Source of the DNA: Candidatus Altimarinota bacterium
GTDB lineage: Bacteria > Patescibacteriota > Gracilibacteria > JAUYGZ01
DNA: 64,000 nt
Assembly (NCBI GenBank): GCA_029233985.1
Contig: JARGOK010000001.1
Span: 867,096 to 931,095 of the forward strand
Reading direction: 5' to 3'
A model generated the notes under the pieces. That model was not told the DNA's origin. It was given only the letters and a program-made list of their open reading frames with translations, and ran no database searches. Positions 31,566 through 36,354 of the stretch are shown here, piece after piece (the first letter of the stretch is position 1; each line of letters begins with the position of its first letter). The position numbers and the translations under genes are program-made.

Positions 31566-33287
31566 ATGGATACTTTTGTTTTTCTTTTAGGATGGACTGG
31601 CCTGATTTTGGGTTCAATCCTTGTTTTTGCACTGATTTATGACCGATTTTTTCAACGTAAGAACCTTGTGATTGCTAATTTTCCGCTTGTTGGGAGGTTT
31701 CGATATCTGTTTCATGAGCTTCGACCTTTGTTTCGACAGTATTTTGGTGACGATGATAGTTGGGTCCCAAGAATTATCATTGATTGGATTCTTTCTGTTT
31801 CAGAAGGCAAGACGGGGTATTTTTCTTTTGATAAATTTGATACGACTGAGCATTTGCATGATGGACATCATCAGATGGTGCATTCGCCAAGTCCACTCAA
31901 CGAAGATGAGACAAAACCTTTGTACCCGACGATAGGACCAAAGAGAAAGCACCCTTTGCAGTTTCAAACCTTCTTTTATAGAAGTGCGATGAGTTTGGGG
32001 TCTATTGGTTTTGAAGCTACCACAGCTATGTCTGCAGCTTGTGTGGAAGCAGGAGCTGCTTTTAATACTGGTGAGGGGAGTCTGTCTATTCATCATTTGC
32101 CTCGTGTGAAGTTTTCGAAAAAACATAAATGGATGAAGTTTCATCAGGTTTCATCTTTTTGGAAGGTTTTTTACCGCATGACTCCAGGTAAACGGATGGA
32201 AACATATGTGGTGGATTTCTTTGCTTGGATGGTTATTCCAAAGGAACGTGTGCAAGGAAAAAAGCATAGTATGAGAGATTTGTATCTTTTTGATGAGGAA
32301 GCTTTTGTGTTTTATACTATCGATTGGAGTGCTCCGCTGGAAGTGTTTCCAAAGCCGGAGGATTTGTCTGATGAGTATGGTCGGATTATTTTTCAAGTGG
32401 GGTCTGGTATGTATGGACTGAGAAAAAAGAAGGCAGATGGAGCTTTTGAGTTTGATTTTGATCGTTTTCAAAGAGTAGCGAGTTTTTGCCGTGCTATAGA
32501 AATAAAACTCGCTCAAGGAGCAAAACAAACTGGAGGGATTTTGAAAGCTTCTAAAAACACTCCTGTTATCTCGGAAATCCGAGGTGTTCACCCTAATATC
32601 GACTTGGTTTCGCCAAATCGTTTTCCTTTTTTGGAGAAGGGGAAGGAATCAGAGTTTTTTGATTTCTTGGAAAAATTGAGTGATTTGGCTGGTGGAAAGC
32701 CTGTGGGGATGAAAATCGTGGTATCGGATGAAAAGAATATCGAAGGTTTTGCAAAAGCTCTAAAAGCTCACCCTAAAAAAGGCCCTGATTTTATTACTCT
32801 TGATGGTGGAGATGGTGGTTCTGCGACAGCTCCTATAGCTTTGGGGATCTTGTTTGGTCGTCCTATTTACGAAGCTTTGGTCATCGCAAATAAAGTCTTG
32901 AATGAGTATGGAGTGAGAGACCGTGTAAAAGTATTTGCTTCTTCGAAGCTCTATGCTCCGCATATGTCGGCTCGAGCGATGGCATTGGGAGCAGATGCAA
33001 TAGGAAATGCTCGGTCTATTATGATTGCTGGAGGCTGTATACGTGCTGGTCTTTGTTCAGGTGAAAAGGCTGCTTGTCCGGTTGGGATGGCGACTTTGAA
33101 TAAATCGAAGACGCGGTCTTATGCGCAGACTATCGAGAAGAAAATCAGTCAGATATCTAATTATATAACAGCACACAACAAAGGATTGATTCAGGTGGCA
33201 GCTATTTGTGGGCTTGAAAGCCCTCATTTGTTGAGTGAAGAGCATCTGATGGACCCACTTGATTCGATGATCCAAATTGGGCATTAG
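31566..33287 (+). CDS. FMN-dependent glutamate synthase-like protein
   Basis: A 573-residue protein with one N-terminal membrane segment (about 5-25), followed by the FMN-binding glutamate synthase domain. Visible blocks are ITLDGGDGGSATAPIA, ALGADAIGNARSIMIAGGC and a cysteine cluster CIRAGLCSGEKAACPVG that fits the 3Fe-4S site of the family. The amidotransferase half and the small GltD subunit are absent here. It therefore belongs to the stand-alone FMN branch, whose electron donor and true reaction are not certain. It is divergent from the ribosomal operon. Confidence 0.85.
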   Translation: MDTFVFLLGWTGLILGSILVFALIYDRFFQRKNLVIANFPLVGRFRYLFHELRPLFRQYFGDDDSWVPRIIIDWILSVSEGKTGYFSFDKFDTTEHLHDGHHQMVHSPSPLNEDETKPLYPTIGPKRKHPLQFQTFFYRSAMSLGSIGFEATTAMSAACVEAGAAFNTGEGSLSIHHLPRVKFSKKHKWMKFHQVSSFWKVFYRMTPGKRMETYVVDFFAWMVIPKERVQGKKHSMRDLYLFDEEAFVFYTIDWSAPLEVFPKPEDLSDEYGRIIFQVGSGMYGLRKKKADGAFEFDFDRFQRVASFCRAIEIKLAQGAKQTGGILKASKNTPVISEIRGVHPNIDLVSPNRFPFLEKGKESEFFDFLEKLSDLAGGKPVGMKIVVSDEKNIEGFAKALKAHPKKGPDFITLDGGDGGSATAPIALGILFGRPIYEALVIANKVLNEYGVRDRVKVFASSKLYAPHMSARAMALGADAIGNARSIMIAGGCIRAGLCSGEKAACPVGMATLNKSKTRSYAQTIEKKISQISNYITAHNKGLIQVAAICGLESPHLLSEEHLMDPLDSMIQIGH

Positions 33288-33365
33288 ATCGTGTTTTCAG
33301 TGTTTTTGGCACTAAAGCTGCTAGATATCTAAAATGTGAGGAAGAGAGCATTTTTATGCTTTTCC

Positions 33366-33393
33366 TTGACTTTTTAGCTTTAACGGTTACAAT
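33366..33393 (+). promoter_or_regulatory. strong promoter of a short intergenic transcript
   Basis: TTGACT (33366-33371) and TACAAT (33388-33393) are 16 bases apart. No gene starts close downstream; instead a terminator follows about 145 bases later. Confidence 0.6.
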
Positions 33394-33399
33394 GGGCTC

Positions 33400-33545
33400 G
33401 AAAATTTCTTATTTGCTGCATATGTCTCAGACATTTGTCCATCTCAATCTCATTATTACTCGCCTAGCTTTGCAGCTCGTGAGGTGTGATTAGATGAATT
33501 GTAAGAATACAAATTCACTGAGATCGCCTCACAGGCGGTGTTTTT
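33400..33545 (+). ncRNA. candidate small RNA or attenuator leader
   Basis: The stretch lies between a strong promoter and a terminator. Pairings visible are GCTGCA/TGCAGC (33415-33420, 33471-33476), a hairpin TGTC/GACA (33423-33433), and a 9-bp bulged hairpin at 33495-33517. The segment GTGAGGTG (33479-33486) can pair over 8 bp with CGCCTCAC (33525-33532), which would break the terminator stem. A 23-codon reading frame starts at 33422. I could not match it to 6S, SRP, tmRNA or a known riboswitch. Confidence 0.45.
33523..33545 (+). terminator. terminator of the intergenic transcript
   Basis: ATCGCCT (33523-33529) and AGGCGGT (33533-33539) form a 7-bp stem with a three-base loop, followed by GTTTTT. 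Half of the stem can pair alternatively with 33479-33486. Confidence 0.65.
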
Positions 33546-33583
33546 GTTCAATGTCCTTTGAAATACTGAATTGAATAGGGAGT

Positions 33584-33678
33584 CCACTCTTTATCACTTT
33601 TCTCCACTGTGGAGGGATTCAATACATAGTGTGTTGTTGTGATAAGGAGTGGTTCTCTCTGTTGAAATATGGAGAGAA
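33584..33678 (+). other. structured leader before an orphan gene
   Basis: A 14-bp stem with one G-T pair (33584-33597 with 33639-33652) encloses a small hairpin (CTCCA/TGGAG). It is followed by a second hairpin, TTCTCTC/GAGAGAA (33653-33659, 33672-33678). ATTGAAT and ATTCAAT segments could add a further long-range pairing. It ends 33 bases before the ATG of the orphan gene, suggesting a 5' leader. Confidence 0.5.
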
Positions 33679-33710
33679 TACAGTTTTATGTGTAGAACTA
33701 AGGAAACATC

Positions 33711-34085
33711 ATGAAAAGCTTTGATCTGAAAACAGAACTGTCCAACACCCTGCAATGGGTAGTTGAGGGGCATCCGATTCAGTACAATCGGATTTACAAA
33801 GTAAGCAAGCACTTACGTGCATTAGCTTGTGGTTGCACAAGAACCTATAAACAAGCTAATCTGAGTGCTTGGAATGTGTGGATGGAAGAAGATCTTTTTT
33901 TCCACCTCAATTGTCCTAATAACCAGATTATTTTCAGAAAAGTACAACTAATCAAAGCTGGTGCAAGTTTCGTACCAGCGTCAAATGATTACAATGACTC
34001 ACGAAAGGTTGGAAAACTTAATTGTGGGAAAAAAGGGAGGATTATTATCCGTGAGAGTGCACGGATAATAAAAAGTACTCACTAA
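33711..34085 (+). CDS. orphan Cys-containing protein, 124 residues
   Basis: I do not recognise this protein. The ATG at 33711 has an AAGGA Shine-Dalgarno match six bases upstream, unlike nearly every other gene in the window. The product is basic, with cysteines in ALACGCTR, HLNCPNN and KLNCGKKG, no signal peptide and no membrane segment. A perfect 11-bp terminator follows. The leader structure, ribosome site and terminator style suggest a self-contained unit of possibly foreign origin. Confidence 0.55.
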   Translation: MKSFDLKTELSNTLQWVVEGHPIQYNRIYKVSKHLRALACGCTRTYKQANLSAWNVWMEEDLFFHLNCPNNQIIFRKVQLIKAGASFVPASNDYNDSRKVGKLNCGKKGRIIIRESARIIKSTH

Positions 34086-34110
34086 AGCAATTTTTCAACA
34101 GAAAGAACAA

Positions 34111-34147
34111 GGCACGGGTCCACAGGACCCGTGCCGCTCATTTTTTA
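34111..34147 (+). terminator. strong terminator after the orphan gene
   Basis: GGCACGGGTCC (34111-34121) and its exact complement (34125-34135) enclose a three-base loop. A T-run starts at 34141. It is far more GC-rich than most terminators in this window. Confidence 0.88.
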
Positions 34148-34197
34148 TTCAGTATTTATACGCTATACTTGTAGTGTTTATTTGTCATACTATTACT

Positions 34198-34578
34198 ATG
34201 AAAACAGTTGTTTCTAGCGATGCAGCACCAGCTGCTGTAGGGCCTTATTCTCAAGCGATCAAAGCGAATGGGATGTTGTTTTGTTCTGGGCAGATCCCTT
34301 TGGATCCGGTGACGAATGAGCTGGTGTCTGGTGGAGTGGAGCAGCAGACGGATAGAGTGCTCGAAAACCTGAAGATTGTTTTGGAGGCGGCTGGTTCTTC
34401 GATGGAAAGCGTGGTGAAAACGAGTATTTTTTTGAAAAATATGGATGATTATTCTGTGGTGAATGAAGTGTATGGGTCGTATTTTCCAGGAGATGCTCCG
34501 GCGAGAGAGTGTGTGGAAGTGTCGAGGTTGCCGAAGGATGTCTTGGTGGAGATCAGCGTGATAGCTTTGGCTGAGTAG
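34198..34578 (+). CDS. ridA: RidA family enamine/imine deaminase
   Basis: Hydrolyses reactive enamine/imine intermediates made by PLP enzymes. The start at 34198 (MKTVVSSDAAPAAVGPYSQAI) fits the family, giving 126 residues. Conserved blocks are GPYSQAIKANGMLFCSGQIPLDP, KTSIFLKNMDDY and the catalytic APARECVEVSRLPKDVLVEI with the key arginine. It stands alone, followed by the acidic repeat-motif protein. Confidence 0.92.
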   Translation: MKTVVSSDAAPAAVGPYSQAIKANGMLFCSGQIPLDPVTNELVSGGVEQQTDRVLENLKIVLEAAGSSMESVVKTSIFLKNMDDYSVVNEVYGSYFPGDAPARECVEVSRLPKDVLVEISVIALAE

Positions 34579-34611: not shown

Positions 34612-36354
34612 ATGAGTGAGTCTTCATCAGATTGGATTGATTCGTTTTTTGATGAGTATGATGCACGATCGGAAAATGAGCAGAATGCTGCTGAAAATGT
34701 AGAGTCTTTTGAGAAGCAAAAAAGAGCTTCTGAACCAAAAGCTGAGACGTTTTTTGATGAACTGTATTTCAATACTCATCAGGATAGTGGGGATCTTCCT
34801 CAGAAAACATCAGATGATCTGAAGAGTATTCGTACAGAAGTGTCTGATCGTGTAGAGGAGCTATTTGATGAGATGGGGTTTGTTGATGATTTCTTGCTTG
34901 AAGGAGCATTGCCTCATGTGGATGATGGTTCTTCTGTGTCTTCATCTGAGCACTTTGCTGATAGACGAAGAGATCTTTCTGGAATGATCGAGACGAATAC
35001 TGAGATTTCTGATGATTTGCGGATGGTTACAGAAGAAGGGATTGGTCATCGTTTAGGGGCTGATTCTGTCATGGAAAACCCTTTTGATAAGAAAGTGACA
35101 AATGAGGAGTTTGAGGCGTTTTTTGATGAAGCTTTTTCTGATTGTGATGGGAGTGAAGATCATCCTCTGCGAGAAGTTTCGATTGTTTATGCAGATGAAT
35201 TTGAGCAGCGAGCTTTGGTTCAAAAATCTCGGAAGTATGATGAATTTTTGAGTGCAGTTGGTTCTGATATCATTAAGATGGAAATCGCTGACAGAACTTT
35301 TAATGCTCGGGTGCTTCGGGAGCTCGCGCAGTCTGATAATCATCGTATTCGACTCAAAGTGGCTTCAAATGCTAAAACCCCTTTTGATGTTTTAGAGATG
35401 TTTGCTCAGTCAAACGAGTACTTTGTTTTGGGAGCTGTTATGAAACATCCAAAGACCACTATGGAGCTTCTTTTAGAGATGAAAAAACGCTTTGAGGCTG
35501 GAAGTGATCTTGATTGTATTGTGAATTTGAGAAGAATGAATAGTTTTTTAGAAGAAATGAAAACAACAGCTCGGCAAGATATTGAAACTAATAGGCCCCC
35601 TTTTTCCGATTCTCGCCATCAGCATGTGCCCGAGAAACGCTCAATAACGGTATCGGAGCGTGTTGCAGAATTGTTTGATGAGATGGGGTTTGTCGATGAT
35701 TTTCGCTTGAGTGTGCCGATGAAGAGTGTTTCCGGATGTGCTCAATTTGGTGACCCTGTTTTGTCGATGGGTATTATAGAGCTTCTTGCTGATGATGATC
35801 ATGCATCAGTAGTCCTGGATGTGGCGAATGACTCTGTACCTGATGACAATTGTAATGATGATGATTTGATGTCCTATCTTGCTCCTCAAATAGAAGCGCT
35901 TGACAAGTTTTTGAGTCGTCGCGATGATTTGCGTGTATCTGATACGCGATCTCCTCATATTCGAAATCCTGAGATTCATCGTCAGTTGCAAAAAATACTT
36001 CGAATGATTGATACTTGGGAGGCGTCTTTGTCAGATTATGTGGCGGAAACTTTTCTCAATGATATTGATGATCATGCATTTCAAAAACAGCATGAGCTTT
36101 TTCAGAGTAGCGTAGAGGATGATCTTAGGAATGTGGATCGTGAAATGACTGATCACCAAAAACATTTGTACTCTTTGATTATTCCAGAAGCACGCAAGCA
36201 TCAATTAGGAAGGAATACTTTCAAAGTGTTGTCTACGCGTGAAAACCGGCCAGTTCTTTTTGACTCGCCAGCCGATATTTCTTTGGATGTGTCCTCTTGT
36301 ATAGAGGATTTATTGGATGAAGGATCTGATGAGGCCTTTTTTTTAGACGTGTAA
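34612..36354 (+). CDS. acidic protein with repeated F-F/L-D-E motifs and LRV-like segment
   Basis: I do not recognise the full protein. The 580 residues are acidic and probably largely disordered. A short motif recurs six times: SFFDEYD (~12), TFFDELY (~47), ELFDEMGFVDDF (~83 and exactly again ~353), AFFDEAF (~169) and DLLDEGSDEAFF (~566). Residues about 235-293 (LAQSDNHRIRLKVASN, AKTPFDVLEMFAQS, MKHPKTTMELLLEM) resemble leucine-rich-repeat variants. There is no signal peptide, so it is likely cytosolic. Repeated identical short motifs separated by disordered sequence suggest a multivalent binding scaffold; this is inference. Confidence 0.6.
   Translation: MSESSSDWIDSFFDEYDARSENEQNAAENVESFEKQKRASEPKAETFFDELYFNTHQDSGDLPQKTSDDLKSIRTEVSDRVEELFDEMGFVDDFLLEGALPHVDDGSSVSSSEHFADRRRDLSGMIETNTEISDDLRMVTEEGIGHRLGADSVMENPFDKKVTNEEFEAFFDEAFSDCDGSEDHPLREVSIVYADEFEQRALVQKSRKYDEFLSAVGSDIIKMEIADRTFNARVLRELAQSDNHRIRLKVASNAKTPFDVLEMFAQSNEYFVLGAVMKHPKTTMELLLEMKKRFEAGSDLDCIVNLRRMNSFLEEMKTTARQDIETNRPPFSDSRHQHVPEKRSITVSERVAELFDEMGFVDDFRLSVPMKSVSGCAQFGDPVLSMGIIELLADDDHASVVLDVANDSVPDDNCNDDDLMSYLAPQIEALDKFLSRRDDLRVSDTRSPHIRNPEIHRQLQKILRMIDTWEASLSDYVAETFLNDIDDHAFQKQHELFQSSVEDDLRNVDREMTDHQKHLYSLIIPEARKHQLGRNTFKVLSTRENRPVLFDSPADISLDVSSCIEDLLDEGSDEAFFLDV

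Follow-up and report, generated by a model that had tools for sequence, protein, structure and literature searches.

Between a glutamate-synthase-like gene (31566-33287; Glu_synthase in the Pfam search) and ridA (34198-34578; Ribonuc_L-PSP in the same search) lies a gap of 910 nt, and the question raised by this locus is what the gap encodes. The locus belongs to a 64-kb window, by which we mean the whole stretch of DNA that was analysed, in a genome of 1.66 Mb (5 contigs, 97% complete), whose class relatives have small genomes and ridA genes with in-frame TGA codons, which suggests Gracilibacteria. An earlier note had read positions 33366-33546 as a short transcript with a strong promoter and a terminator that excludes, and is excluded by, a competing helix, i.e. 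as an attenuator, riboswitch or leader-peptide switch possibly controlling an orphan gene at 33711. The elements of this layout are present, but they are statistically weak when taken alone, and a larger structured region around 33711 had been missed.

Terminator-like hairpin and competing helix of the reported element

GTGAGGTG (33479-33486) pairs over 8 bp, including one G-U, with CGCCTCAC (33525-33532), which contains half of the terminator stem. An inner hairpin of roughly 9 bp lies between the two partners, and the terminator-like hairpin of 7 pairs and the 23-codon frame from 33422 are found as described (Table 1). In addition, CGCCT (33461-33465) pairs with AGGCG (33533-33537), forming an outer helix that is absent from the earlier account. 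Because this helix adds to the 8-bp pairing, both halves of the terminator are engaged in one three-way structure in the computed fold. At equilibrium, the terminator hairpin (33523-33539) has a probability of ~0.18 and the competing helix of ~0.82; in this fold the two are thus mutually exclusive, as had been proposed.

The element as a whole (33399-33547) has a minimum free energy (MFE) of -39.1 kcal/mol (z -2.1), and 4 of 200 shuffles were as low. The terminator and its competitor share sequence, as expected of an attenuator; however, equally strong disruption of the terminator occurred with 19 of 300 shuffled upstream sequences. Among the 12 terminator-like sites in the window, two have a hairpin probability below 0.2. 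The promoter was confirmed only as a site: it agrees with the consensus at 10 of 12 positions, but such promoter-like sites number three, against 4.0 +/- 1.7 in shuffles, which is the chance level. The 23-codon frame (33422-33493) is probably a product of chance.

A terminator and a competing helix that exclude each other are the common layout of transcription attenuators and riboswitches, and 33455-33547 resembles them in this respect; unlike them, it has neither a match to a ligand-binding family nor a convincing downstream gene. The earlier note had recognised no family, and the covariance search against Rfam that it proposed agrees, giving nothing at the gathering score and weaker matches that were sub-threshold and at chance level. 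No riboswitch model in Rfam matched, and no copy of 33399-33547 was found elsewhere in its own genome or in the other 352 genomes of the class. All the parts, their mutual exclusion and a z of -2.1 can be cited for a switch complete in itself, whether attenuator, riboswitch or leader-peptide switch, or for an independent small RNA of ~145 nt; set against the shuffled upstreams, the chance-level promoter, the doubtful gene downstream and these searches, such an element appears improbable.

The hairpin could also serve the gene on its left, with 33523-33547 as the 3' terminator of the glutamate-synthase-like gene and the preceding stretch as its 3' untranslated region. It is the first + strand terminator-like site past the stop codon at 33287 in our scan. 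However, within its surrounding sequence the hairpin has a low probability (0.18), and the structured core downstream, 33562-34156, would be left unexplained; we regard this use of the hairpin as unlikely.

Table 1. Predicted features of the gap between the glutamate-synthase-like gene and ridA.
Feature	Position	Strand	Support
Promoter-like TTGACT-16-TACAAT; start predicted at ~33400	33366-33393	+	10/12 consensus matches
23-codon frame (MSQTFVHLNLIITRLALQLVRCD)	33422-33493	+	no run of regulatory codons by eye
5' three-way-junction domain: outer CGCCT/AGGCG helix, AGCT hairpin, GTGAGGTG x CGCCTCAC, inner hairpin	33455-33547	+	MFE -32.9
Terminator-like hairpin; competes with the three-way domain	33523-33539	+	7 pairs, 4 of them G-C, followed by GTTTTTGTTC
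Large structured RNA core (predicted), 595 nt, 39% GC	33562-34156	+	MFE -208.0 kcal/mol, z -11.1
Outer closing helix, 5' strand; 13 pairs with 34143-34156	33562-33575	+	mean pair probability 0.80
14-bp helix around two hairpins (33599-33617, 33620-33636)	33584-33652	+	mean pair probability 0.97, 0.89, 0.92
10-bp hairpin	33653-33678	+	0.75
124-codon ORF within the core; probably not a gene	33711-34085	+	
Multi-branched domain; hairpins 33743-33765, 33773-33792, 33806-33871, 33877-33909	33718-33943	+	helices 0.45-0.98
8-bp hairpin GCTGGTGC/GTACCAGC	33957-33979	+	1.00
12-bp perfect hairpin	34042-34071	+	0.96
11-bp GC-rich hairpin, terminator-like on both strands; T-run begins 5 nt past the stem	34111-34135	+	1.00
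Outer closing helix, 3' strand; overlaps the T-run that follows hairpin 34111-34135	34143-34156	+	fold, inverted repeat

Folding of the core and the orphan reading frame

A search for repeats near the element led to nested inverted repeats across 33561-34157. The MFE of the core is -208.0 kcal/mol, whereas the mean of 60 dinucleotide shuffles is -141.5 (sd 6.0) and their lowest value -154.2; as in large ornate ncRNAs, a stretch of several hundred nucleotides folds far past shuffled sequence (z -11.1 over 595 nt). Relative to the shuffle mean, the core lies at -64.1 kcal/mol on the + strand and at -55.2 on the - strand. The same difference averages -2.3 (sd 7.5; lowest -20.0) in 76 other 595-nt pieces, which were taken on both strands at 38 positions of a fixed grid, one of these positions overlapping the neighbourhood of the core. 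In 200-nt windows of the + strand, z ranges from -2.3 to -6.4 over 33500-34199 and is near zero for most neighbours, while the windows at 33100-33399 also give values of -3.0 to -3.7. The count of perfect helices does not single out the core, which has 12 helices of at least 9 bp versus 3-19 in 14 flanking pieces. From these folding statistics, the core is probably a large structured non-coding RNA.

The + strand folds better than the - strand (MFE -180.1) by 27.9 kcal/mol; 1 of 100 shuffles attained a difference as large, and 9 of 100 attained its excess of 14 G-U pairs. It counts against an ncRNA that the - strand, at 55 kcal/mol below its shuffle mean, also folds well; for this reason the palindromes may have originated at the DNA level.

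In the predicted structure, the long hairpins mostly have pair probabilities above 0.85, and lower values (0.14-0.72) apply to the long-range joints of domains 33683-34088 and 33718-33943. The two ends contain a perfect inverted repeat of 11 bp (33561-33571 / 34147-34157). Since the outer helix occupies the T-run that a terminator at 34111-34146 would need, the 3' end and the closing helix are in conflict. The closing helix ends 41 nt before the start codon of the adjacent ridA (34198), which is on the same strand, and the core might be read as an unusually large cis-acting leader of this gene. However, the GC-rich terminator-like hairpin intervenes, the ridA genes of two other genomes (G001 and G002) have no such leader, and the usual cis-regulators are far smaller than the core; a role as ridA leader is very improbable in our judgement.

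For the ORF at 33711-34085, searches of Pfam, NCBIfam, PHROGs, PADLOC, genome contigs (41 pattern stretches), viral contigs (18) and phages turned up no relative. The only plasmid match covers 33 residues (E 0.8), the best match in PDB has an E-value of 0.15, and the best non-self match among 99 genomes (own included; E 0.0039) contains an internal stop. Because the ORF has no relatives in these searches and is located within a 595-nt region of extreme RNA fold, a gene under separate control is improbable here, and the suggestion that an attenuator governs it is not supported. Its own MFE of -115.7 was reached by none of 100 synonymous-codon shuffles (z -4.3) and by none of 100 dinucleotide shuffles (z -6.3), and a repeat run with 30 synonymous-codon shuffles gave z -5.2. 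In the same test, 45 pieces of 16 other genes have a mean z of -0.35 (sd 1.2); one of them reached -4.7, which argues against the ncRNA reading.

The ORF might nevertheless be a real gene, lineage-specific or foreign, with an mRNA structured by accident or selection and 33399-33710 as a structured leader. When the gap was shuffled 2000 times, a + strand ORF of at least 124 codons appeared in just 11 cases, suggesting that the ORF may be real. In addition, AAGGA is found upstream of its ATG, the start is unpaired in the fold of 33545-34165, and the hairpin at 34111-34135 comes after the stop codon. The codon score, intermediate between real and wrong frames, is compatible with a gene, 4.8% of real-gene pieces lying below it and 4.8% of wrong-frame pieces above it. 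Against a real gene stand the lack of a relative in any collection searched and a fold that goes past synonymous shuffles (z -4.3 to -5.2). The single-sequence AlphaFold2 model of the product is also poor (mean pLDDT 35.9), which is weak evidence for one sequence without an alignment. Moreover, the upstream motif is atypical here: AGGA, GGAG or GAGG precedes the start in none of 29 other long ORFs of the window (a subset of the 37 used for the codon score, with starts taken from the longest ORF), and 10.5% of all 12-nt windows contain one of these motifs. We judge an accidental frame more likely, and a real gene rather unlikely.

Many leaders of the long ORFs in the window are pyrimidine-rich or A/T-rich. 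Together with the absence of the motif from all 29, this suggests Shine-Dalgarno-independent initiation in this genome.

Known RNA families and the proposed reading

A search of 33250-34250 against Rfam, extended to E 10, gave no match to OLE, ROOL, GOLLD or HEARO, and none to a group I or group II intron model. A search of the literature, with subscription journals mostly outside it, found no large ncRNA described from Gracilibacteria or Patescibacteria. A hidden housekeeping RNA was considered as well and rejected, because no SRP-type motif was seen by eye and no SRP, RNase P or tmRNA model matched (the last also by ARAGORN). With the small bacterial SRP RNA model of Rfam, 11 of 14 control genomes gave matches and the own genome gave none.

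The best reading of these comparisons is that the core would be of the same kind as the large ornate RNAs, while falling in none of the OLE, ROOL and GOLLD families. OLE (ornate, large, extremophilic) RNA is described as ~600 nt long and elaborately folded, with a function not established (PMC9723947, PMC12054373), and the core is also ~600 nt long with an elaborate predicted fold. However, OLE comes mostly from Gram-positive Bacillota, whereas the core has no Rfam match and is known from one sequence. ROOL and GOLLD are reported as large multi-branched ncRNAs of unknown function (PMC12286853); the core, too, is large and predicted to be multi-branched, but differs in lacking a match to Rfam. 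According to the same source (PMC12286853), phages and prophages encode GOLLD, often close to tRNA islands. In contrast, the single tRNA of our window (ARAGORN) is 13.4 kb from the structured element, and ribosomal-protein genes adjoin the element. A long ncRNA of L. salivarius is described as 520 nt long, confined to one species, megaplasmid-borne and expressed, and the annotated gene LSL_1885 that overlies it is thought there not to be real (PMC5643018). As predicted from its sequence, the core shares with this RNA the large structured form, the narrow distribution and the doubtful ORF on top; it differs in that the L. salivarius RNA is expressed and lies on a megaplasmid, the core being known as sequence alone.

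We favour, with moderate confidence, the reading that the + strand of 33562-34156 specifies a multi-branched structured ncRNA of ~595 nt, closed by the 13-pair outer helix; the reported element would belong to it as 5' domain or leader, and the ORF would be accidental. The sequence elements and the excess folding of the + strand are what the analysis shows, whereas transcription, the ends of the RNA, its lack of translation and its role are inferred. With a transcription start near 33400, the 5' domain and the core would share one transcript, driven by a promoter of a kind that occurs at chance level. The element at 33399-33547 would most likely be the 5' domain of the large RNA, or else a leader of the same transcript. 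As the three-way fold takes both halves of the 33523-33539 hairpin, transcription would mostly continue into the core, with termination or processing near 34140-34160. The ORF at 33711-34085 would be an accidental frame that is presumably left untranslated. By analogy with what is known or suspected for OLE, ROOL and GOLLD, the RNA might act in trans as a stable scaffold, in an RNA-protein particle or an RNA oligomer, although we hold this role to be doubtful. We also suggest, tentatively, that the locus could represent a new class, namely an ornate ncRNA of ~600-745 nt from a candidate-phyla-radiation bacterium, in which an alternative terminator at the 5' end gates synthesis and a spurious gene is called over the RNA.

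Distribution of the region and its neighbours

DNA searches recovered the region from its own genome. The stretch 33290-33720 gave its own match only in 99 genomes (own included), and in 322 genomes of the phylum no match of 33395-34165 other than its own had an E-value of 1e-4 or less. For 33545-34165, no homolog was found in 353 genomes of the class, with at most two candidates scored per genome; some match at E <= 1 was obtained in 285 of them, nearly all of ~17-60 nt and spread over different parts of the query. The best non-self match (G031, L015 1501-1543; 43 nt, 86%, E 1.4e-6), to ~33898-33938, lies upstream of an unrelated gene with no other similarity at that locus, and was taken as chance, its E-value notwithstanding. 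Phages and plasmids gave short matches only (7 and 4 records, E 0.2-0.8). In viral contigs, two exact 16-base patterns were met at 38 and 14 loci, none of which extended in a check that compared 93 loci and excluded the window's own copies.

Covariation among homologs is the standard proof of RNA structure, and that these searches turned up no homolog counts against the ncRNA reading. The covariance models used here (R1, R2 and R3) were single-sequence models, each built from one sequence entered twice. With R2 and R3, searched in the class or the own genome, the window alone matched. R1 found its own locus on both strands and a further genome (G054, E 1.1e-4); this match was rejected as a homolog, being a palindromic intergenic repeat without an Rfam match.

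G002, from the same family, has rplC next to ridA, with a gap of ~380 bp that does not contain the element, suggesting that the stretch was inserted here or lost in G002. In G001, ridA is in another place and the region is absent. The G002 gap contains a 15-bp inverted repeat (L032 1972-2085); the fold around it is ordinary (z -0.17) and has no Rfam family. As far as the collections searched extend, the stretch appears to be lineage-specific.

The region could also be a DNA-level fold-back element, i.e. a miniature mobile element or its remnant with terminal inverted repeats at 33561-33571 / 34147-34157. The perfect 11-bp repeat, the many internal palindromes, the well-folding - strand and the G002 gap, where the stretch was gained here or lost there, are in line with this origin. 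However, the structured stretch is single copy in its genome, no target-site duplication was seen by eye, and just 1 of 100 shuffles reached the margin of the + over the - fold; we consider a fold-back element quite improbable.

Only a small number of large structured RNAs without an assigned function are known from bacteria, and they are normally found by comparison of many genomes. Under the preferred reading as a structured ncRNA, the candidate has so far a single uncultured bacterium as its source; a lineage-specific RNA without relatives would be missed by comparative pipelines and annotated as a hypothetical protein. The L. salivarius RNA is a precedent on two counts, being narrowly distributed and lying under a gene call that is doubtful (PMC5643018). 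If the candidate is real, it provides a concrete molecule for probing, and single genomes from poorly sampled lineages could be screened for orphan ORFs whose fold exceeds that of synonymous-codon shuffles. If it is not, the case advises caution with strongly structured orphan genes.

The glutamate-synthase-like gene, which adjoins the structured region, has a match in 2 of 12 relatives searched. Since it is missing in most of them and lies next to the region, the two may have arrived or been lost jointly. On the other side, 34612-36354, next to ridA, encodes a 580-residue protein with no Pfam family at the cut-off and none in NCBIfam. In two genomes of class family f15, G016 (L038) and G025 (L041), ridA contains 6 and 5 in-frame TGA codons, respectively, which fits a recoded TGA, as expected.
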